Of a stretch of DNA of 64,000 bases, positions 30,692-40,914 are shown piece after piece. This DNA is from Streptomyces deccanensis (lineage in GTDB: Bacteria; Actinomycetota; Actinomycetes; Streptomycetales; Streptomycetaceae). The stretch is from assembly GCF_022385335.1 (NCBI RefSeq), contig NZ_CP092431.1, positions 8,432,001 to 8,496,000 of the forward strand, written 5' to 3'. The notes beneath the pieces are model-generated. The model saw nothing but the letters and a program-made list of their open reading frames with translations, had not been told where the DNA came from and did no database searches. A program made the translations under genes and the position numbers. Each line of letters starts with the position of its first letter. The stretch's first letter is position 1.

Positions 30692-30809
30692 GCGGGGGCG
30701 AGCCCCGGCTTCCGACCGGCGGCGGTCCGCCCCGGGAATTCACGGCGATTCCCTACCGAATACACCGAACGGGTGGGGATTGTCAGTGCCGCGTGCTGTC
30801 ATGGGGGGC

Positions 30810-31655
30810 ATGATCGAAGCCAACGAAACCATCGACGAGTTTCTCGCCCGACACGCCTCGGACGTCGAGGAAGCGATCCGCAAGGCCGCCGCCACGGAGA
30901 TCATGCCGCGCTTCCGGCAGCTCGCCGCGCACGAGGTCGACCAGAAGAGCGGCCCGCACGACCTGGTGACCGACGCCGACCGCAAGGCCGAGCTGTATCT
31001 GACGGAGGCGCTCTCCGAGCTGCTGCCCGGCTCGGTCGTGGTCGGCGAGGAGGCGGTGCACGCCGACCCCGCGTCGTACGAGGCGCTCCAGGGGGAGGCA
31101 CCGGTCTGGATCGTCGACCCGGTGGACGGCACCCGGCAGTTCGTGCGCGGCGAGCCCGGGTTCTGCACCCTCGTCGCCCTCGCCCGGGGCGGAGTGCTGC
31201 TCGCCTCCTGGACGTACGCGCCCGCCCTCGACACGCTCGCCGTGGCGATCCGCGGGCAGGGGGCCACGCTCGACGGCGAGCCGCTGCGTGCCGGGTCGCC
31301 CGACCCCGGCCGTGACCTCGACATAGCCACCTCCCACCCGGACTACACCACGGAGGAGCAGAAGCGGGCCCTGCTCGGCCTCTGGTCCGACGGGGTGTCC
31401 CCACGCGCCTGCGGCTCGGCCGGGCTGGAGTATCTCGCCATCGCCAGGGGTCACTTGGACGCGGTCGCCTTCAGCTGGGAAGCGGCCTGGGACCACGCGG
31501 CGGGCCTCCTCCTGGTCGAGGAGGCGGGCGGCGCCCACCTCACCCTGACCGGCGAGCCCTTCCGCATCACGGGCGGCAACACCCTGCCCTTCACCACGGC
31601 CCGGGACGCGGCCACGGCCCGCCGGGTACGGGGTCTGCTGACGGGCGGCGCCTGA
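30810..31655 (+). CDS. inositol monophosphatase-family phosphatase
   Basis: A 281-residue Mg2+-dependent phosphatase. Metal-site motifs are V-T-D-A-D, G-E-E-A, the core D-P-V-D-G-T-R-Q-F-V (about residues 106-115) and the C-terminal W-D-H-A-A-G. Family members dephosphorylate inositol phosphates, histidinol phosphate, 3'-phosphoadenosine phosphate or sugar phosphates; the T-R-Q-F-V form does not fix the substrate. Two upstream in-frame starts exist (30780, 30801); the ATG at 30810 gives the family's usual N-terminus. It precedes an FAD oxidoreductase gene by nearly 300 nt. Confidence 0.85.
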   Translation: MIEANETIDEFLARHASDVEEAIRKAAATEIMPRFRQLAAHEVDQKSGPHDLVTDADRKAELYLTEALSELLPGSVVVGEEAVHADPASYEALQGEAPVWIVDPVDGTRQFVRGEPGFCTLVALARGGVLLASWTYAPALDTLAVAIRGQGATLDGEPLRAGSPDPGRDLDIATSHPDYTTEEQKRALLGLWSDGVSPRACGSAGLEYLAIARGHLDAVAFSWEAAWDHAAGLLLVEEAGGAHLTLTGEPFRITGGNTLPFTTARDAATARRVRGLLTGGA

Positions 31656-31949: not shown

Positions 31950-33371
31950 GTGCCGTCGATGCTCGACGCGGTGGTGGTGGGGGCGGGGCCGAACGGCCTG
32001 ACGGCCGCCGTGGAGCTGGCCCGGCGCGGGTTCTCCGTGGCCGTGTTCGAGGCGAAGGACACCGTGGGAGGGGGCGCCCGCACCGCGGAGCTGACCCTGC
32101 CCGGGTTCCACCACGACCCCTGCTCGGCCGCCCACCCGCTCGGCGTCAACTCGCCCGCGTTCAGGGCGATGCCGCTCCACCGCCACGGCCTGGAGTGGCT
32201 GCACGCCGACCTCCCGATGGCGCACCCCTTCCTCGACGGCTCGGCGGCCGTGCTGTCGCGCTCGGTGGGGGAGACGGCCGCCTCGTTCGGACCGCGTGAC
32301 GCGGGCGCGTACCGCCGACTGGTCGAGCCCTTCCTGCCCAAGTGGGACACGCTCGCCCGGGACTTCATGTCGCTGCCGCTGTCCGCGCTGCCCCGCGACC
32401 CGGTCACCCTCGCCCGCTTCGGTCTCGTCGGCCTGCCGCCGTCGACCTGGCTGATGCGCCGCTTCAAGGACGAGCGGGCCAAGGCGCTGTTCGCCGGACT
32501 CGTCGCCCATGTCATCGCCCCGCTCGGCGGCCTCGCCACCGGCGCCGTCGGCCTGGTCTTCGCCCTGGCGGCGCACGCGGCCGGCTGGCCGGTCGCCCGG
32601 GGCGGCTCACAGGCCATCTCGGACGCGCTCGCCGCCTATCTGGTGGACCTCGGCGGCACCCTGCACACGGACTACGAGGTCAAGCGGCTCGACGACCTGC
32701 CGCCCGCCCGCGCCTACGTCTTCGACACCTCACCCACCGCGTTGGCCCGGATCGCGGGCTTCGGCGGCCACTACGACGCCTACCGCTACGGCGCGAGCGT
32801 CTTCAAGCTCGACTACGCCCTGGACGGCCCCGTGCCCTGGACCGCCGAGGAGGCGCGTCGCGCGGGCACCGTCCAGGTCGGGGCGAGCAGGGCCGAGATC
32901 GGGGCGGCGCTGCACGCGGCCTCCCGGCAGAACCGCGCACCCGACCCGCCCTTCCTGATCACCGTCCAGCCCAGCCTGGTGGACCCCGGCCGGGCCCCCG
33001 AGGGCAAGCACGTCTTCTGGGCCTACGGCCACGTCCCGAACGGCTGGACGGGAGACCTGACGGACGCCGTCGAGCGCCAACTGGAGCGCTTCGCCCCGGG
33101 GTTCCGCGACCGCGTGCTCGCCCGCGCCACCGCGGGCCCGCCCGAACTCGCCGCGCACAACGCGAACTACGTGGGCGGCGACATCGCCTGCGGCGCCGCC
33201 TCCGGCCTCCAACTGCTGCTCCGCCCGAGGCTCTCGCTCCGCCCGTACGACACCCCGCACCCGGCCGTGTTCATCTGCTCCTCGGCGACCCCGCCGGGAC
33301 CCGGGGTGCACGGCATGTCGGGCCACAACGCGGCCAAGGCGGTGTGGCGCAGGCTGCGGCAGGAACCCTGA
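31950..33371 (+). CDS. NAD(P)/FAD-dependent oxidoreductase, phytoene-desaturase-like
   Basis: A 473-residue flavoprotein with an N-terminal dinucleotide-binding motif [12 protein letters not shown] (about residues 8-19), the G-G-x-x-R-T-like segment V-G-G-G-A-R-T-A, and a C-terminal FAD block ([13 protein letters not shown]). It belongs to the amine-oxidase/phytoene-desaturase superfamily; no carotenoid gene is nearby, so the substrate is unknown. The GTG at 31950 has GAAGGGG 7 nt upstream and places the dinucleotide motif at the usual distance. It ends 104 nt before the ebo operon and could supply a substrate for it, which is speculation. Confidence 0.85.
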
Positions 33372-33475: not shown

Positions 33476-34468
33476 ATGAAAGATCGGAGAGCGGGGGCGG
33501 GCTCCGGCCCGCGGCCTCGCGTGGGCCTCGCCGACCTCGCACAACTGGTGCGCGCCCCGGCCGCGTTGAGCGTCCCGGGCGACGTGCTCGCGGGCGCCGC
33601 CGCAGCCGGGCACCCGCTGGGCGCGCGGACGGTCGGCGTGATGGGTTCGTCCGTCTGCCTCTACTGGGCCGGCATGGCCCTCAACGACTACGCCGACGCC
33701 ACGGTCGACGCGGTCGAACGCCCCGAGCGCCCCGTCCCGTCCGGCCGGATCCCGCGCCGCACCGCGCTCGCCGTCGCGGGCACCCTGACCGCCGGGGGCC
33801 TCGCGCTCGCCGCCGCCTCGGGGGGCCGCCGGAGCCTCATGGGAGCGCTTCCGCTGGCCGCCGCCGTCTGGGCGTACGACCTCAAGCTCAAGTCCACCCC
33901 GGCCGGCCCCGCCGCCATGGCCTCAGCGCGGGCCCTCGACGTCCTCGCGGGCGCGTTGGCCGCCGGGGGCGGACCGGACCGCACGACCGGGACCGGTGCA
34001 GCCCTGCTGCGCGGCGCCGTCCCCGCCGCGCTGGTCGGCGCCCACACCTACACCCTGACCGCCCTCAGCCGCCACGAGATCTCGGGCGCCCCCGCCCGGC
34101 TGCCGGCCGCGACCCTCGCCGCCTCCACGACGACCGCCCTCGCCACGGCGCTCCCGGCCGCCCGCACCGCCGTCGCCTGGCGCGCCGGGCGACTTCAGGG
34201 GCGCGCGGGCACCACCGCCGCCGTCCGGGCCGCCGTGGTGGCCGCGGGCGCCCTCGCCTACCTCGGCAGCTACGGAACGGCTCAGGCCCGGGCCGTGAGG
34301 GAACCGTCGGGCGACAACGTACGGCGGGCCGTCGGGGCCGGGATCCTCGGGCTGATGCCGCTGCAGGCCGCGTTGACCGCACGCAGCGGAGCCACGGCAG
34401 CGGCGGCGGCCCTCGGCGTCGTACACCCCCTCGCGCGGCGGCTCGCCCGGCGCATATCCCCCACCTGA
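33476..34468 (+). CDS. eboC: EboC-like UbiA-family prenyltransferase
   Basis: A 330-residue polytopic membrane protein (about 7-9 hydrophobic segments) of the UbiA superfamily. The first Asp-rich motif is N-D-Y-A-D-A-T-V-D followed by R-P-E-R-P-V-P-S-G-R-I; the second Asp-containing motif is reduced to Y-D-L-K-L-K-S-T. It is the first gene of a six-gene run plus a P450 stump, whose members match ebo cluster families. In cyanobacteria, ebo genes are needed to move a scytonemin precursor to the periplasm; EboC is presumed to prenylate or anchor the metabolite. The substrate here is unknown. Confidence 0.82.
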   Translation: MKDRRAGAGSGPRPRVGLADLAQLVRAPAALSVPGDVLAGAAAAGHPLGARTVGVMGSSVCLYWAGMALNDYADATVDAVERPERPVPSGRIPRRTALAVAGTLTAGGLALAAASGGRRSLMGALPLAAAVWAYDLKLKSTPAGPAAMASARALDVLAGALAAGGGPDRTTGTGAALLRGAVPAALVGAHTYTLTALSRHEISGAPARLPAATLAASTTTALATALPAARTAVAWRAGRLQGRAGTTAAVRAAVVAAGALAYLGSYGTAQARAVREPSGDNVRRAVGAGILGLMPLQAALTARSGATAAAAALGVVHPLARRLARRISPT

Positions 34469-34500
34469 ACAGCACGGACCTCCGCAGGAGGAAAGCCGGA

Positions 34501-35364
34501 ATGACCCCGCCCCCCACCCCCCTCAGATTCGGCTACGGCACCAACGGCTTCACCAACCACCGGCTGGGCGATGTCCTCGCGGTCCTCGCCGACCTCGGCT
34601 ACGACGGCGTCGCCCTCACCCTCGACCACGGCCACCTCGACCCGTACGCGGACGACCTGCCCCGGCGGGTGGCCGCGATCGCCCGGGACCTGGCCCGGCA
34701 CGGACTGGACGTCACCGTGGAGACCGGCGCGCCCTACCTCCTCGACCCCTGGGGCAAGCATCATCCGACCCTCATGGCGGACGGCGCCGAACGCAGGATC
34801 GACCTGCTGCGACGGGCCGTACGCATCGCCGCCGAGCTCGGCTCGCCCACCGTCCACCTGTGCAGCGGCCCCGCACCGGGCGACGGTCTGCCGGAGCGGG
34901 ACGCGTGGAAACGGCTCGCGGCGGGCGTCGAGACCGTCCTGGAGACGGCGGAGGAGTACGGCGTCTCGCTGGCCTTCGAACCCGAGCCGTACATGTTCGT
35001 CGACACCGTGGAGCGGTGCCTCGAACTCGCCGAACTGGTCGGTGGGCACGAGCTGTTCGGGATCACCTTCGACGTGGGGCACGCCCACTGCGTCGAGGAG
35101 CGGACCGTCCTGGAGTGCGTCCGCCTCGCCGCCCCGCGTCTGCTGAACGTGCAGATCGAGGACATGCGGCGGGGCGTCCACCGGCATCTCGAACTCGGCA
35201 CCGGCGAGATCGACTTCCCGCCCGTGCTCGCCGCCCTCCAGGACCTCGACCACCGCGGACTGGTCTCCGTGGAGATCCAGGGCGGTTCCCTCGACGCCCC
35301 CGAAGTGGCCCGCCGCTCGCTCGACTTCCTGCGCGCGGCGACGGTCCGTCCCCGCACGTCCTGA
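34501..35364 (+). CDS. xylose-isomerase-like TIM-barrel protein in ebo operon
   Basis: A 287-residue sugar phosphate isomerase/epimerase-type (AP endonuclease 2 superfamily) barrel. Putative metal ligands are the Glu of A-F-E-P-E-P, the Asp/His of F-D-V-G-H-A-H-C, the Glu of V-Q-I-E-D-M and the Glu of V-S-V-E-I-Q-G. It lies 32 nt after eboC and 40 nt before eboA with a strong site (GGAGGAAAG), so it is an operon member. It is distinct from EboE, itself a barrel encoded at 37221. No eboD (dehydroquinate-synthase-like) gene is present in the run; this gene stands in the cluster instead. Confidence 0.82.
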   Translation: MTPPPTPLRFGYGTNGFTNHRLGDVLAVLADLGYDGVALTLDHGHLDPYADDLPRRVAAIARDLARHGLDVTVETGAPYLLDPWGKHHPTLMADGAERRIDLLRRAVRIAAELGSPTVHLCSGPAPGDGLPERDAWKRLAAGVETVLETAEEYGVSLAFEPEPYMFVDTVERCLELAELVGGHELFGITFDVGHAHCVEERTVLECVRLAAPRLLNVQIEDMRRGVHRHLELGTGEIDFPPVLAALQDLDHRGLVSVEIQGGSLDAPEVARRSLDFLRAATVRPRTS

Positions 35365-35404
35365 CGCCCCCGCGTCCTCCACCCCCACAGGAGGTTGTTC
35401 CGTC

Positions 35405-36190
35405 ATGGTCTCCACCGGAATGCCGCCCGCCGAGACGGCCGAACTCTCCGACCCCCGAACCCTCCTCGCCCGCCACCCCCTGGATCCGCCCGCCCGCGCC
35501 TGGCTCGACGAGGCGAAGGCCCGGGTCACCGAGCGCCCCGCAGCCGTCCGCACCCTGTTCCCCGCCGCCCGAAGACGCGTCGGGCGTGCCCGGCTGGACG
35601 CGCGCTGGACCGTCGACGAGGCCGCCCGCGCGGTCCTGCTCACCGCGCTGCCGCTGGGCGGACAGCCGCTCGCCGACGAACTGGCCGGCCTGCACCGCCA
35701 CGGCGACCCGGCCGAACAACGGGCGGTCCTGCGGGCCCTGCCGCTGCTCGCCGCCCCGGACCGCGGCGACGCCTCCCGGGAACCCCTCGGCGACCTCGCC
35801 CTGCCCCTCGTCCGGGAAGCCCTGCGGGGCAACGACAGCGGCATCATCGAGGCCGCCCTCGGCCCGTACGGCGCGGCCCGGCTGCCGGACGCCGAGTACC
35901 GGCAGGCCGTGCTGAAGTGCGTGTTCCACGAGATCCCCCTGGACCGGATCGACGGTCTCCCCGCCCGCGCCGACGCCGAACTCGCCCGCATGCTCGCCGA
36001 CTTCGCCCACGAACGGGTCGCCGCGGGGCGTGACGTGCCGACGGACATCTGGCCCGTCGTCCGCCCCTTCCCCGCCGCCGACCGGCTCACCGACGGACTC
36101 GCCGCCGAGACGCGGGCCGCCGCACCCGAGCGCCGAGAGGCCGCCGAACGTGCCCTGGCGGAACTCCGCCGGACCACGGCCTCCCCCTAG
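35405..36190 (+). CDS. eboA: EboA-domain protein
   Basis: A 261-residue, mostly helical, soluble protein without catalytic motifs, matching the EboA family by composition and context (D-P-P-A-R-A-W-L-D-E-A, A-R-A-V-L-L, the Y-R-Q-A-V-L-K-C-V-F-H-E-I-P block, and M-L-A-D-F-A-H-E-R). EboA is the least understood member of the ebo set; its partners suggest a scaffold or carrier role. Its last codons (T-A-S-P then TAG) lie in the first of three direct repeats of CCACGGCCTCC that continue beyond the gene, so the native C-terminus may have been altered. AGGAGG precedes the start. Confidence 0.8.
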   Translation: MVSTGMPPAETAELSDPRTLLARHPLDPPARAWLDEAKARVTERPAAVRTLFPAARRRVGRARLDARWTVDEAARAVLLTALPLGGQPLADELAGLHRHGDPAEQRAVLRALPLLAAPDRGDASREPLGDLALPLVREALRGNDSGIIEAALGPYGAARLPDAEYRQAVLKCVFHEIPLDRIDGLPARADAELARMLADFAHERVAAGRDVPTDIWPVVRPFPAADRLTDGLAAETRAAAPERREAAERALAELRRTTASP

Positions 36191-36249
36191 CCGGGGGACC
36201 CCCGTCCACGGCCTCCCCCAGGCCAGGGCAACCCGCGCCCACGGCCTCC
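36174..36249. repeat. three direct repeats at the 3' end of eboA
   Basis: CCACGGCCTCCCCC occurs at 36174-36187 and 36206-36219, and CCACGGCCTCC again at 36239-36249 (spacing 32 and 33 bp). The eboA stop codon (36188-36190) is immediately after the first copy. The repeats occupy much of the 166-nt gap before the eboB gene, the largest gap in the operon. Confidence 0.6.
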
Positions 36250-36356
36250 GCAGGTCACCGTGGCCGTCCGCCACCGCCATCGCCACCTCCACGCATCGTC
36301 ACCCGCCCGGCCACAGTCGGCGCGGCTCACCGACCACTCGAGGAAAAGGCCTGCCC

Positions 36357-37211
36357 GTGCGCATCTTCGACCCCCACATCCACATGACCTCCCGCACCAC
36401 CGACGACTACGAGGCGATGCACGCGGCCGGCGTGCGCGCCGTCGTCGAGCCGGCGTTCTGGCTGGGCCAGCCCCGCACCTCGCCCGAGAGCTTCTACGAC
36501 TACTTCGACGCGCTGCTCGGCTGGGAGCCCTACCGGGCCGCCCAGTTCGGCATCCAGCACTTCTGCACGATCGCCCTCAACCCCAAGGAGGCCAACGACC
36601 CGCGCTGCCGGCCCGTCCTGGACGAACTGCCCCGCTACCTGGCCAAGGACCGCGTGGTCGCGGTCGGCGAGATCGGCTACGACTCCATGACGCCCGAGGA
36701 GGACGAGGCCCTCGCGCTCCAGCTCCAGCTCGCGATCGAGCACGAACTGCCCGCCCTGGTGCACACCCCGCACCGTGACAAGGCCACCGGCACCCGGCGG
36801 ACCCTGGACGTCGTACGGGAGTCCGGCATCGCCCCCGAACTCGTCGTCCTCGACCACCTCAACGAACTGACCGTCGGCATGGTCCTCGACAGCGGCTGCT
36901 GGGCCGGGTTCTCGATCTACCCGAGGACCAAGATGAGCGAGGACCGCATGGTGACCATCCTCCAGGAACACGGCACCGAGCGCGTCCTCGTCAACTCGGC
37001 CGCCGACTGGGGCCGTTCGGACCCGCTCAAGACCCGGAGGACCGCGGACGCCATGCTCGCCGCCGGGTTCGACGACGACACCGTGGACCGGGTGCTGTGG
37101 CGCAACCCGGTCGCCTTCTACGGCCAGAGCGGACGGCTGGACCTCGACGAACCCAAGCCGGACGAGGAGTCCAGCTTCCAGGGCAACTCCGTCCGGCGCG
37201 GCGGGGAGTGA
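36357..37211 (+). CDS. eboB: EboB-like TatD-family metal-dependent hydrolase
   Basis: A 284-residue amidohydrolase-superfamily protein of the TatD type. It begins R-I-F-D-P-H-I-H-M (the H-x-H metal motif, residues 7-9), with the Glu of V-G-E-I-G-Y-D and the His of L-V-H-T-P-H-R. A late Asp in S-A-A-D-W-G-R-S-D-P supplies the catalytic acid. EboB proteins are predicted hydrolases acting on the trafficked metabolite; the substrate is unknown. The GTG start has GAGGAAAAGG 7 nt upstream. It is followed 9 nt later by eboE. Confidence 0.85.
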   Translation: MRIFDPHIHMTSRTTDDYEAMHAAGVRAVVEPAFWLGQPRTSPESFYDYFDALLGWEPYRAAQFGIQHFCTIALNPKEANDPRCRPVLDELPRYLAKDRVVAVGEIGYDSMTPEEDEALALQLQLAIEHELPALVHTPHRDKATGTRRTLDVVRESGIAPELVVLDHLNELTVGMVLDSGCWAGFSIYPRTKMSEDRMVTILQEHGTERVLVNSAADWGRSDPLKTRRTADAMLAAGFDDDTVDRVLWRNPVAFYGQSGRLDLDEPKPDEESSFQGNSVRRGGE

Positions 37212-37220
37212 GGACCACCC

Positions 37221-38435
37221 ATGCGCTTCCGTCACCCGGACGGCACCGCCGTCCACCTCGGCTACTGCAGCAACGTCCACCAGGCGGAGGATGTCGACGG
37301 CGTCCTCGCGCAGCTCGCCGACCACGCCGAACCGGTGCGGGAGCGGCTGGGCGTCGACCGGCTCGGCATCGGGCTCTGGCTCGCCCGTGACGTGGTCGCC
37401 CGCCTGACCGCCGAACCGGGCGAGTTGGCGCGACTCAAGGGCGAACTCGACGCCCGGGGCCTGGAGACCGTCACCCTCAACGCCTTCCCCTACGCCGGGT
37501 TCCACCGCGACGTGGTCAAGAAGGACGTCTACCTCCCCGACTGGGCGGACGAGGCCCGCCTGACGCACACCCTGGACTGCGCCCGTGTCCTCGCCGCGCT
37601 CCTGCCCGACGACGCGGAACGCGGCAGTGTCTCCACCCTGCCGCTGGCCTGGCGCACGCCCTGGCCGCCGGAGCGCGCCGACACGGCGCGCCGCGCCCTG
37701 GACCGGCTCGCCGCCGGGCTCGCCACGATCGAGTCGGACACCGGGCGCCGCGTCCGCGTCGGCTTCGAACCGGAGCCCGGCTGCGTCGTGGAGACCACCG
37801 CCCAGGCCGTACGGGAACTGCGCGGCCTCGACCCCGAACGACTCGGTGTCTGCCTCGACGCCTGCCATCTCGCCGTCCAGTTCGAGGAACCCGGCGCGGC
37901 CCTGCGCCGCCTCGCCGAGGCCGGGCTGCCGGTGGTCAAGCTCCAGGCGTCCTGCGCGATCGAGGCCGCCGACCCGGCCGCCCCCACCGCCCGCACGGCC
38001 CTCCGCCGCCTCGCGGAACCACGCTTCCTGCACCAGACGCGCACGGCGGCGATCGCGGGGACGGGCGGGGAGCCGCGTACGCCGGAGGGGCGGGCGGTGG
38101 CCGGGTTCGTGGCTCCGGAGGTGCGGGGTGTCGATGATCTGCCGGACGCGCTCGACGGGGGGCTGCCCACGGACACCGGTCCCTGGCGCGTCCACTTCCA
38201 CGCACCGCTGCACGCCGACCCCGAACCGCCGCTGCGCACCACCGCCGACCAGCTGGTCCGGGTCCTGGCCGGACTCCTCGGCGGGCCCTCGGCGGACTGC
38301 GACCACATCGAGGTCGAGACCTACACCTGGTCCGTCCTCCCCGAACCGCCCACGGACCTGCCCGGCGGCATCGCCGCCGAACTCGCCTGGGCCCGCGACC
38401 GGTTGACCGACCTCGGCCTCAAGGACGACCGATGA
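37221..38435 (+). CDS. eboE: metabolite traffic protein EboE
   Basis: A 404-residue TIM-barrel protein with the EboE family opening H-L-G-Y-C-S-N-V-H-Q-A-E, then G-L-W-L-A-R-D-V, T-L-N-A-F-P-Y, and barrel-strand acidic residues in G-F-E-P-E-P-G and L-D-A-C-H-L-A-V. It ends with H-I-E-V-E-T-Y-T-W-S-V-L-P. Length matches the family. In known ebo clusters it always accompanies eboA, eboB and eboC; no enzymatic assay is known to me. Very tight spacing to eboB (9 nt) shows co-transcription. Confidence 0.86.
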   Translation: MRFRHPDGTAVHLGYCSNVHQAEDVDGVLAQLADHAEPVRERLGVDRLGIGLWLARDVVARLTAEPGELARLKGELDARGLETVTLNAFPYAGFHRDVVKKDVYLPDWADEARLTHTLDCARVLAALLPDDAERGSVSTLPLAWRTPWPPERADTARRALDRLAAGLATIESDTGRRVRVGFEPEPGCVVETTAQAVRELRGLDPERLGVCLDACHLAVQFEEPGAALRRLAEAGLPVVKLQASCAIEAADPAAPTARTALRRLAEPRFLHQTRTAAIAGTGGEPRTPEGRAVAGFVAPEVRGVDDLPDALDGGLPTDTGPWRVHFHAPLHADPEPPLRTTADQLVRVLAGLLGGPSADCDHIEVETYTWSVLPEPPTDLPGGIAAELAWARDRLTDLGLKDDR

Positions 38436-38500
38436 CGAGCCCGCGACCGCCCCACCGGGAGCCCCCGACCGGCCCCGGCCCCCTTCGAGGAGAAGCAGCG

Positions 38501-38539
38501 ATGAGCCTTCGGCCCGGCAACAAGGAGCACCTGCGATGA
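38501..38539 (+). CDS. possible 12-codon leader ORF before eboF
   Basis: ATG at 38501 is preceded by GAGGAG at a good distance and opens a 12-codon frame (M-S-L-R-P-G-N-K-E-H-L-R) whose TGA overlaps the eboF ATG (ATGA). It could be a translated coupling peptide or a chance frame; eboF also has its own AAGGAG site 8 nt before its start. Confidence 0.3.
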   Translation: MSLRPGNKEHLR

Positions 38540-39936
38540 GTACCCGATCCCACCGGCTCGTCGTCCTCGACATCGTCGGTCTCACCCCCAAGCTGCTGGC
38601 CCACATGCCCGCCGTCGCCGCCCTCGGCGAGCGCGGCTTCCGGGCCCGGCTCGACCCCGTCCTGCCCGCCGTGACCTGCACGGTCCAGTCCACGTTCCTC
38701 ACCGGCGAACCACCCACCGGGCACGGCGCGGTCGCCAACGGCTGGTACTTCCGCGACCTCGGCGAGGTGCTGCTGTGGCGCCAGCACAACGCGCTCGTCG
38801 GCGGCGAGAAGATCTGGGAGACCGCCCGCAGGACCGACCCCGACTACAAGGTCGCCAACATCTGCTGGTGGTACGCGATGGGGGCGGACGTCGACCTCAC
38901 CGTCACCCCGCGCCCGGTCTACTACTCCGACGGCCGCAAGGAACCCGACTGCTACACCTGGCCGCCCACCCTGCACGACGAACTCACCGACCGCCTGGGC
39001 CCGTTCCCCCTGTTCACCTACTGGGGCCCCAACGCGGGCATGCCCTCCACCCAGTGGATCCTGGGCGCCGCACGCCAGGTCTTCGACGAGCACGACCCGG
39101 ACCTCACCCTCGTCTACCTCCCCCAACTCGACTACGAGCCGCAACGATCCGGCCCGGACTCGCCCGCCACGATCCGCGCCGCCCGCCAACTCGACGACGC
39201 GCTGCGCCCGTTGCTCGACCACTTCCAGCGCGAGGGCGCCACGGTGGTCGCGCTCAGCGAATACGGCATCACGCCCGTCTCCCGCCCCGTGGACATCAAC
39301 CGCGCCCTGCGCCGGGCCGGACTGCTCCAGGTGCACACGCAGGACGGCATGGAGTACCTCGACCCCTGGACCTCACGCGCCTTCGCGGTCGCCGACCACC
39401 AGGTGGCCCACGTGTACGTCCGGGACCCGGCCGACACCGCGGAGGTCGACGAGCTGCTGGCCGGACTCGACGGCGTGGACGAGGTGCTGGACGCCGAGGG
39501 CAAGGCCGCGCACGGCCTGGACCACGAACGCTCCGGCGAACTCGTCGCGGTCGCCGACCCGGACGCCTGGTTCACGTACTACTACTGGCTCGACGACGAG
39601 CGCGCCCCCGACTTCGCCCGCCAGGTCGAGATCCACCGCAAGCCCGGCTACGACCCCGCCGAGCTGCTCTACGACGAGACCGTCCCCGCGGTGAAGCTGC
39701 GCGCCGTCGGCCAGGTCGCCCGCAAGAAACTGGGCTTCCGCTACCGCATCAGCACGGTGCCGCTGAACCCCGCCGGCGTCCGGGGCAGCCACGGCCGCCT
39801 CCCCGCCGACCCCGACGACGGTCCCGTCCTGCTCTGCTTCGCGCCCGAGCCGGCCCGGGAGGCGTACGCCGCCACCGAGATCAAGTCCCTGCTGCTGGGC
39901 CTCGCCGGCCTGACGGAACAGAAGCCGCACGCATGA
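38536..39936 (+). CDS. eboF: EboF-like nucleotide pyrophosphatase/phosphodiesterase (alkaline phosphatase fold)
   Basis: A 466-residue alkaline-phosphatase-superfamily enzyme. The N-terminal metal site is V-V-L-D-I-V-G-L-T, and the catalytic Thr lies in A-V-T-C-T-V-Q-S-T-F-L-T-G-E. Later metal ligands are L-P-Q-L-D-Y-E (Asp), S-E-Y-G-I-T (acidic) and A-D-H-Q-V-A-H (Asp-His), with a final His in A-A-H-G-L-D-H-E. Such proteins cleave phosphodiesters or phosphomonoesters; as EboF it is thought to act on the trafficked compound. No signal peptide is seen. Its stop overlaps the start of the P450 stump by 4 nt. Confidence 0.84.
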   Translation: MSTRSHRLVVLDIVGLTPKLLAHMPAVAALGERGFRARLDPVLPAVTCTVQSTFLTGEPPTGHGAVANGWYFRDLGEVLLWRQHNALVGGEKIWETARRTDPDYKVANICWWYAMGADVDLTVTPRPVYYSDGRKEPDCYTWPPTLHDELTDRLGPFPLFTYWGPNAGMPSTQWILGAARQVFDEHDPDLTLVYLPQLDYEPQRSGPDSPATIRAARQLDDALRPLLDHFQREGATVVALSEYGITPVSRPVDINRALRRAGLLQVHTQDGMEYLDPWTSRAFAVADHQVAHVYVRDPADTAEVDELLAGLDGVDEVLDAEGKAAHGLDHERSGELVAVADPDAWFTYYYWLDDERAPDFARQVEIHRKPGYDPAELLYDETVPAVKLRAVGQVARKKLGFRYRISTVPLNPAGVRGSHGRLPADPDDGPVLLCFAPEPAREAYAATEIKSLLLGLAGLTEQKPHA

Positions 39937-40226
39937 CGCCCCACCTTCCCCTCCCGCCCCTCCGTCCACTGCTCGACCCGTCGCCGGAGTACGCCAAGTG
40001 GCGTGACGAGGAGCCGATCCGGCGGGTGACGATCTGGGGTGACAACAGCCCCTGGCTGATCACCCGGCACGAGGACGCCCGCGCGGTCCTCGCCGACCCC
40101 CGCTTCAGCGCCGACCCGACCCGCGACGGCCCCCCCGGCTTCCGCCCGCAGTCGCCACCCCGGGCTCCGGGCCAGTTCTTGATGATGGAGCTGCCCGACC
40201 ACACCCGCCTGCGCGCCGGGTCCTGA
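39933..40226 (+). pseudogene. truncated cytochrome P450 (N-terminal ~95 residues only)
   Basis: A 97-residue frame overlapping eboF by ATGA. Its sequence is a typical bacterial P450 N-terminus: W-R-D-E-E-P-I-R-R-V, S-P-W-L-I-T-R-H-E-D-A-R-A-V-L-A-D-P-R-F-S, then M-M-E-L-P-D-H-T-R-L-R, the start of the family's D-P-P-E-H-T-R-L-R-R block. The oxygen-binding helix, ExxR and heme Cys motifs are absent, and no continuation is seen in any frame downstream. The frame ends inside a perfect 17-bp inverted repeat. The reading frame and coupling are intact, so the gene appears cut rather than decayed. Confidence 0.82.
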
Positions 40227-40368: not shown

Positions 40369-40914
40369 ATGACCACCATCACCCTCGTCCGGGGCGACAT
40401 CACCGAGCAGTCCGTCGACGCCATCGTCAACGCCGCGAACTCCTCCCTCCTCGGCGGGGGAGGAGTGGACGGCGCCATCCACCGGCGCGGCGGCCCCGCC
40501 ATCCTGGCCGACTGCCGCAAACTCCGTGCCTCGCTCCCCCACTCTCGGCTTCGCTCGAGCGGGGGGACCCCCATCGGCAAGGGCCTTCCCACCGGTCAGG
40601 CCGTCGCCACCACGGCGGGCGACCTCGACGCGCGCTGGGTCATCCACACAGTCGGCCCCGTCCACAGCCAGAGCCTCGACCGCTCCGCCCTCCTCGCCTC
40701 CTGCTACCGCGAGTCCCTCCGTGTCGCCGACGAGTTGGGAGCCAGGACCGTCGCCTTCCCGGCCGTCTCCGCCGGTGTCTACGGCTGGCCCATGGCGGAC
40801 GCCGCCCGCATCGCCGTGGAGACGGTCCGCTCCACCGAGACCTCGGTCGAGGAGGTCAGGTTCGTCCTCTTCGACGACGAGGCGTACCGGGCCTTCGCCG
40901 AACAGACGGGCTGA
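40369..40914 (+). CDS. macro-domain O-acetyl-ADP-ribose deacetylase
   Basis: A 181-residue MacroD-type macro domain that hydrolyses O-acetyl-ADP-ribose and mono-ADP-ribosyl esters. Ligand-site motifs are G-D-I-T, V-N-A-A-N-S-S-L-L-G-G-G-G-V-D-G-A-I-H (binding Asn and Asp), W-V-I-H-T-V-G-P, and S-A-G-V-Y-G-W-P. Between A-D-C-R-K-L-R and G-L-P-T-G-Q-A-V it has about 12 extra residues (S-L-P-H-S-R-L-R-S-S-G-G-T-P) compared with relatives such as E. coli YmdB. These extra residues are encoded by a palindromic repeat. Monocistronic, downstream of the ebo terminator. Confidence 0.9.
   Translation: MTTITLVRGDITEQSVDAIVNAANSSLLGGGGVDGAIHRRGGPAILADCRKLRASLPHSRLRSSGGTPIGKGLPTGQAVATTAGDLDARWVIHTVGPVHSQSLDRSALLASCYRESLRVADELGARTVAFPAVSAGVYGWPMADAARIAVETVRSTETSVEEVRFVLFDDEAYRAFAEQTG
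40532..40572. repeat. palindromic element inserted in frame in the macro-domain gene
   Basis: This stretch reads through TCCCCC (40535-40540) to GGGGGA (40562-40567), arms of one hairpin, enclosing CTCG...CGAG (about 40543-40558). It is inserted in frame and adds a P-H-S-R-L-R-S-S-G-G segment to the protein. I recall near-identical strings scattered through Streptomyces genomes, in and between genes. Confidence 0.6.

Follow-up and report, generated by a model that had tools for sequence, protein, structure and literature searches.

A 64,000-nucleotide stretch of the Streptomyces deccanensis genome (the window, G000:C1:8432001-8496000, where G000 is our handle for the window's 10.1 Mb genome) carries six consecutive plus-strand genes at 33476-39936 that form an ebo-type set in the order EboC, TIM2, EboA, EboB, EboE and EboF. 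The same genome holds a second set, which has a gene for inositol-phosphate synthase (INO1) and lacks the prenyltransferase gene EboC. The INO1-bearing kind of set (type I) has lost EboC repeatedly, almost only in genomes that also carry a set of the window's kind (type II). We propose that the derived type II set, likely acquired, works together with the resident type I set and that their joint product would be a prenylated inositol-type lipid, a reading to which, from the sequence evidence, we give an even chance of being right.

EboE scores above its cut-off twice in G000, once in the window and once at 8617365. The latter match belongs to a set at G000:C1:8613588-8619913, 148 kb off, which reads INO1-TIM2-EboA-EboB-EboE-EboF without EboC and in which INO1 and TIM2 overlap by 4 bases. 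One of the two INO1 genes of the genome lies in this set and the other at 5134397, and none was found in or beside the window. The window operon also has no EboD, the sugar-phosphate cyclase of other ebo operons; none turned up elsewhere in the genome either, where the single match to the dehydroquinate (DHQ) synthase family lies 6.5 Mb away and is presumably AroB. Among the four UbiA genes of G000, the window EboC is the sole member of the SCO3242 family, the others being heme O synthase (464.6 bits), MqnP (537.9) and decaprenyl-phosphate phosphoribosyltransferase (432.3). No second SCO3242-type EboC is found among these UbiA genes, and the window EboC is the only EboC of the genome.

The preliminary description of this stretch had named six consecutive plus-strand genes of these families and called them an ebo-type set in an actinomycete. 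Both statements hold, as all six genes have Pfam or NCBIfam matches and the EboE (NF035939) and EboA_domain (NF035938) models pass. It overlooked that this is one of two sets in the genome, the want of a cyclase gene, the broken cytochrome P450 gene that follows EboF and the presence of INO1 in sister sets.

Distribution and ancestry of the two kinds of set

The common actinobacterial order, that of type I, is INO1-EboC-TIM2-EboA-EboB-EboE-EboF, with INO1 in place of the unrelated EboD. Named loci were collected with the window EboC as query (the best 80 of at least 179 confirmed), of which 41 belong to type II and 39 do not. INO1 stands directly before EboC in 38 of these 39 loci, all found through EboC, which come from Actinomadura, Amycolatopsis, Catenulispora, Kribbella, Dactylosporangium, Parafrankia, Nocardiopsis and others. 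The absence of EboD from type I operons is read from closed gene order only. EboE is found in 104 genomes of a 150-genome sample of the genus and, above cut-off, in 18 of the 396 genomes of a phylum sample (10 of 236 genera, counting one weaker match). Ten loci of the phylum sample lie outside the genus: eight of them show the INO1 order, L157 is a fragment and L149 belongs to the EboD kind. INO1 thus stands at the place of EboD in most actinobacterial sets examined, which narrows the guess at the product to a cyclitol head group supplied by either of two unrelated cyclases.

The best solved match of the ebo-type INO1 is the inositol-phosphate synthase 1u1i (198.5 bits). Lysines are kept at 1u1i positions 274, 278 and 306 and in a later FxFK, as counted on the alignment, and we take these conserved lysines to be catalytic; position 278 is altered in a near-identical PDB sequence. 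The L149 operon reads EboD (PRK06203, 563 bits), a gene without assignment, EboB, EboE, EboC, EboF and a type 2 isopentenyl diphosphate (IPP) isomerase (319.7 bits, cut-off 281.3) that overlaps the end of EboF by 4 bases, and this last gene ties the pathway to isoprenoids. The unassigned gene of L149 (7568-8401), which has no NCBIfam match, occupies the spot expected for EboA or EboG. Among the neighbours of 51 type I loci (L087-L127 and others), a sugar ATP-binding cassette transporter, a ThuA-domain secreted protein, a ROK-type regulator and a further TIM barrel recur, each in 13 to 21 loci and named by eye.

The window set belongs to type II of Streptomyces, a monophyletic group without INO1 and usually with a P450 gene after EboF. 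INO1 was found in none of the 48 type II loci compared (in L026 there is no room upstream). In a tree of 80 sets (short search, midpoint root), type II is monophyletic with a support of 100 in the Shimodaira-Hasegawa-like approximate likelihood ratio test. It is nested among INO1-bearing sets, namely those of Actinomadura and Embleya and the divergent Streptomyces sets L105 and L140, and apart from the resident Streptomyces sets. This placement suggests that INO1 was probably lost once on the way to type II and that Streptomyces probably acquired the set from another actinobacterium; an origin of type II by local duplication of the resident set is rejected by the tree.

A type II EboC (at least 65% identity) occurs in 16 of the 150 genomes of the genus sample. 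Of the 41 named type II loci, 26 lie at the GGT-IMPase-FAD site of the window (IMPase, inositol monophosphatase; FAD, FAD oxidoreductase), and one locus begins at a contig end. The P450 gene is at least half present in 28 of the 38 type II loci with room downstream. Homologues of 394-397 amino acids occupy this position in three relatives, and the gene is also cut, to 16%, in the near relative G124 (L129). Three type II sets (L060, L082 and L085) have eroded to EboC and TIM2, and the only EboE of these genomes is that of type I. In L144 (G079), a type I set is interrupted between EboE and EboF by type II EboA-B-E-F. G079 shares contig coordinates with G569, the genome of L056, in which type II EboC and TIM2 are still found at the FAD site; since A-B-E-F have moved to L144, L056 is not an eroded set, and type I and type II seem to have recombined here.

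Loss of the type I EboC gene in type II genomes

We scored type I loci by the gap between INO1 and TIM2 together with a search for EboC by tblastn and profile. After 13 of 144 loci that are not in the tree and a further 10 incomplete ones had been set aside, 42 loci from type II genomes were compared with 79 from others; the 42 include extra divergent sets of the same genomes, and the named genomes had been selected for having a type II EboC. The type I EboC is deleted or reduced to a remnant in 21 of the 42 loci and in 1 of the 79 (Fisher P = 5.6e-11, uncorrected for kinship). Parsimony on a FastTree tree gives seven losses; six of them fall on type II branches, whose share of the total length is 21% (P = 4.6e-4). 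Type II is present in nearly every genome with a deleted type I EboC, the exception being G057, a draft genome without type II in which EboC is truncated beside an inverted repeat.

The loss is selective for EboC. When one type I locus is counted per type II genome (37 in all), EboA, EboB and EboE are kept in all 37, INO1 and TIM2 in 36, EboF in 30 and EboC in only 16, and all seven EboF losses fall in loci without EboC. In 80 control loci, INO1, TIM2, EboB and EboE are kept in all, EboA and EboF in 79 (in the locus without EboF, its place falls at a contig edge) and EboC in 77. EboC is defective in four control loci, being truncated in G057 and frameshifted or split in G043, G070 and one of the two loci of G134. 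The loss test treats G057 as a loss and retains G043 and G134 among the kept loci (76 versus 3 if these two are scored as defective); G070 was left out for having too few genes.

A type I EboC overlooked through fast evolution can be rejected, as the INO1-TIM2 gap is below 600 bases in 20 of the 21 lost loci. Between matches, this gap measures 12 bases in G000 and 704 in G065, where a 26-bit EboC remnant persists; remnants also occur in G578 and G557 (46 bits by profile, 35 by tblastn). In two further type II genomes, G567 and G570, TIM2 adjoins INO1 at a contig edge, and both are outside the tree. The converse reduction is found in G571 (Streptomyces sp. AC550_RSS872, L060/L257), whose type II set comprises EboC and TIM2 with remnants of EboA and P450, whose type I set has INO1, TIM2, EboA, EboB, EboE and EboF without EboC, and in which EboE occurs once in the genome. 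Together with G571, the selective and recurrent loss of EboC suggests that EboC (prenylation), at least, is probably a step common to both sets. That one gene disappears again and again, and almost exclusively in genomes where another set could take its place, is evidence from nature for such sharing, and it opens the way to a simple cross-complementation test.

Proposed pathway and its alternatives

The ebo operon occurs across many phyla and in some algal plastids, and we know of no established chemistry for it. Gene content, set ancestry and selective, repeated loss are observations, and from homology and gene context we infer every reaction of the following pathway. The INO1 of the resident set would convert glucose 6-phosphate to inositol phosphate, as its homology and conserved lysines indicate. 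TIM2, EboE and EboB would then remodel the cyclitol, with EboA as a helical scaffold. The window EboC would prenylate the cyclitol in the membrane for both sets, a role consistent with its UbiA family and with the IPP isomerase of the related operon. EboF may act on a phosphate-bearing intermediate through a non-standard metal site, and the P450 would oxidise the product in most type II strains, although it is broken in the window strain. The resulting lipid is possibly a carrier. More broadly, and with somewhat less than even confidence, we suggest that ebo operons are cyclitol-lipid factories in which EboD has been swapped for the non-homologous INO1. An acquired INO1-less set would thus have fused functionally with the resident one, such that the prenyltransferase (and in some strains EboF) of the newcomer serves both, the resident gives inositol phosphate and the P450 of the newcomer tailors the product.

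Parts of this proposal have precedents in the portions of the literature covered here. An EboD-based isoprenoid-cyclitol product was proposed, and EboD-less ebo sets were already reported, in PMC5133447, and a cyclitol lipid carrier was proposed in PMC6282210. Like the ebo operon of cyanobacteria, Bacteroidota and eustigmatophyte plastids (PMC5133447), the window has EboA, EboB, an EboC-like gene, EboE and EboF on the same strand. It differs in lacking EboD, in its extra TIM barrel and in its order C-TIM2-A-B-E-F; in addition, the scores of its EboC and EboA do not reach the family-level cut-offs, and its type I relatives have INO1 for EboD. Ebo genes in actinomycetes are already known: an ebo cluster with a homologue of the EboC-like Ubi-297 was described in Saccharomonospora (PMC9235831). 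Unlike the window, this cluster comprises EboA-E, with EboD included in the text, and the sections covered mention neither INO1 nor a second set. In Streptomyces coelicolor, SCO3242 and SCO3243 are listed with the CDA antibiotic cluster in the part of PMC3610822 covered. SCO3242 gives its name to the NCBI family of the window EboC, and SCO3243, the next number, is annotated as myo-inositol phosphate synthase, as in type I. This suggests that the pair belongs to a separate ebo operon and is not part of the CDA cluster, though it is of type I by name and numbering only, whereas the window set is type II and lacks INO1. No description of the INO1 variant, the two-set arrangement or a shared EboC was found in the open-licence literature searched, and within it both the division into types I and II and the pattern of reciprocal loss appear to be new. 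The INO1-type sets bring the ebo question into the genetically tractable Streptomyces.

Several points weigh against a joint pathway to an inositol-type lipid. No EboC is known to us to use a cyclitol, and EboF is without two residues that we take to be metal ligands in its relatives. The type I EboC is kept in 16 of 37 type II genomes, and in two of the EboC-less genomes, G565 and G559, a further type I set includes an intact EboC (L259, L271). An independent-pairs sign test was underpowered, with 2-4 pairs agreeing and none disagreeing out of 9 (median P = 0.5). Moreover, 7 of the 45 type II genomes searched (2/16 + 5/29) have no ebo-type INO1, so type II can occur without it. These seven include G014, which is 100% complete in 320 contigs, and G084, a single contig; two others of the seven, G564 and G586, nevertheless have a type I-like EboE. 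It should be noted that the loss of a redundant gene shows compatible, not identical, substrates. Finally, an EboC homologue farnesylates quinoline acids in vitro, according to the part of PMC9235831 covered.

Among other explanations, it is unlikely, though worth keeping in view, that the genes form a metabolite export module of the kind suggested for Nostoc, in which a lipid carrier, made or operated by the Ebo proteins, would take a small molecule through the membrane. The EboE of the window passes the 'metabolite traffic' model, a name that derives from Nostoc mutants (PMC6282210, in the part covered), and sugar-transporter-like neighbours were seen by eye in 17 of 51 type I loci. However, we saw no cargo or transporter gene recurring with type II, the recurring neighbours looked for being core genes, and the sections of the Nostoc paper covered found no lipid-linked monomer (PMC6282210). 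Export is compatible, as a later step, with the joint synthesis of a prenylated inositol-type lipid that we favour.

That the window set is a decaying second copy with no role of its own in this strain is improbable. Such decay would account for the missing INO1, for a P450 of 97 amino acids and for the erosion of type II to EboC and TIM2 in relatives (L060, L082 and L085), but all six reading frames in the window are intact, and the other set of the genome is without EboC, leaving the window EboC as the only one. The eroded sets, too, keep EboC and TIM2, though all these loci were found through EboC.

Least probable of all is that EboC prenylates an aromatic acid and that the P450 then oxidises the prenylated aromatic metabolite: Ubi-297 does farnesylate 6 of 14 aromatic acceptors in vitro, best 8-hydroxyquinoline-2-carboxylate (PMC9235831, in the part covered), but acceptance of these substrates in vitro may be promiscuous, the window EboC scores below the EboC equivalog cut-off, it is INO1 that recurs as the first gene, and no aromatic-acid-like gene is among the recurring neighbours listed by eye, without a scan.

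Gene layout and protein families

The coordinates of the set and its neighbours are collected in Table 1. The preliminary description let the set run to 40226; its six genes end at 39936, and the last 290 bases belong to a seventh gene, the truncated P450, whose start overlaps the end of EboF by 4 bases. The gaps from EboC to EboF measure 32, 40, 166, 9 and 100 bases, a spacing that suits an operon; Rfam and promoter scans gave no match. The start of EboB was picked by comparison with relatives, and its Pfam scan ran from 36351.

Table 1. Features of the ebo-type set in the window and of its neighbours (window positions)
Feature	Position	Strand	Evidence or remark
Inositol-monophosphatase-family neighbour	30801..31655	+	same site in relatives; under every NCBIfam cut-off
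FAD oxidoreductase, conserved core neighbour, outside the set	31950..33371	+	in 149/150 same-genus genomes
EboC-type UbiA prenyltransferase, SCO3242 family	33476..34468	+	PF01040, 58.7 bits; NF045897
TIM2, xylose-isomerase-like TIM barrel of actinobacterial ebo sets	34501..35364	+	AP_endonuc_2 PF01261, 146.2 bits
EboA	35405..36190	+	EboA_domain NF035938
EboB, TatD-type metal hydrolase	36357..37211	+	PF01026, 50.5 bits
EboE, TIM barrel	37221..38435	+	NF035939
EboF, alkaline-phosphatase-fold protein with altered metal motifs	38536..39936	+	Phosphodiest PF01663, 202.7 bits, cut-off 23
Cytochrome P450 remnant, type II-associated, 97 of ~395 amino acids	39933..40226	+	19% of homologue covered

A profile check of the ebo assignment gave a divided answer, in that EboE and the EboA domain are above cut-off and the EboC equivalog and EboA family models failed. 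For EboE and the EboA domain, the set thus withstands the refutation that the preliminary description had named, profile scores no higher than those of unrelated families. The window EboC passes the 'SCO3242 family prenyltransferase' model NF045897 (361.9 bits, cut-off 260) and fails the NCBI EboC equivalog model (107.5 bits, cut-off 250), which the EboC of L149 also fails (96.3 bits). Its NCBIfam matches to the archaeal digeranylgeranylglyceryl phosphate synthase and other UbiA enzymes are weak. It shares with these enzymes NDxxDxxxD (the first Asp motif, which is intact), YDxxxK and RPxRPxPSG. NDxxDxxxD and YDxxxK are kept in the EboC proteins compared, and most of them have SRxExxG at the position of what we take to be the canonical second Asp motif of UbiA enzymes.

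EboA passes the EboA_domain model (164.3 bits, cut-off 50) and fails the stricter EboA family model (82.6 bits, cut-off 320). Its AlphaFold2 model is all helical (predicted local distance difference test score 94.3). The best Foldseek hits of this model were engineered helical-repeat and armadillo proteins with low TM-scores, none at E<=0.001, and the predicted fold is compatible with the scaffold idea of PMC6282210. For TIM2, the nearest solved structure is L-ribulose 3-epimerase (43 bits). TIM2 and EboA are fused in 6 of 50 type I loci, a link in actinobacteria (EboA hybrids) already noted in the part of PMC5133447 covered. The EboE of the window reaches 410.1 bits against NF035939 (cut-off 250). 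EboB and EboF match no Ebo-specific NCBI model and were assigned by Pfam TatD and Phosphodiest. In EboB, neither HxH nor the later His/Asp positions vary across 21 loci. In EboF, the window protein and 12 relatives have DxxxQ and SEYG in 13 of 13 where phosphonoacetate hydrolase has DxxxH and DHG, positions that are presumably metal ligands in fold relatives, and a standard two-zinc hydrolase should therefore not be assumed.

The FAD oxidoreductase was rejected as a member of the set, since it is found in 149 of the 150 genus genomes and the type II EboC in 16. It and the inositol monophosphatase also stand immediately upstream in relatives, but several type II sets are located elsewhere, and both genes are regarded as neighbours of the insertion site; the latter is not set-specific as far as seen, its spread in genomes without type II not having been searched. 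A macro-domain protein (40369-40914) directly follows the P450 remnant and adjoins the P450 at the same site in many relatives.

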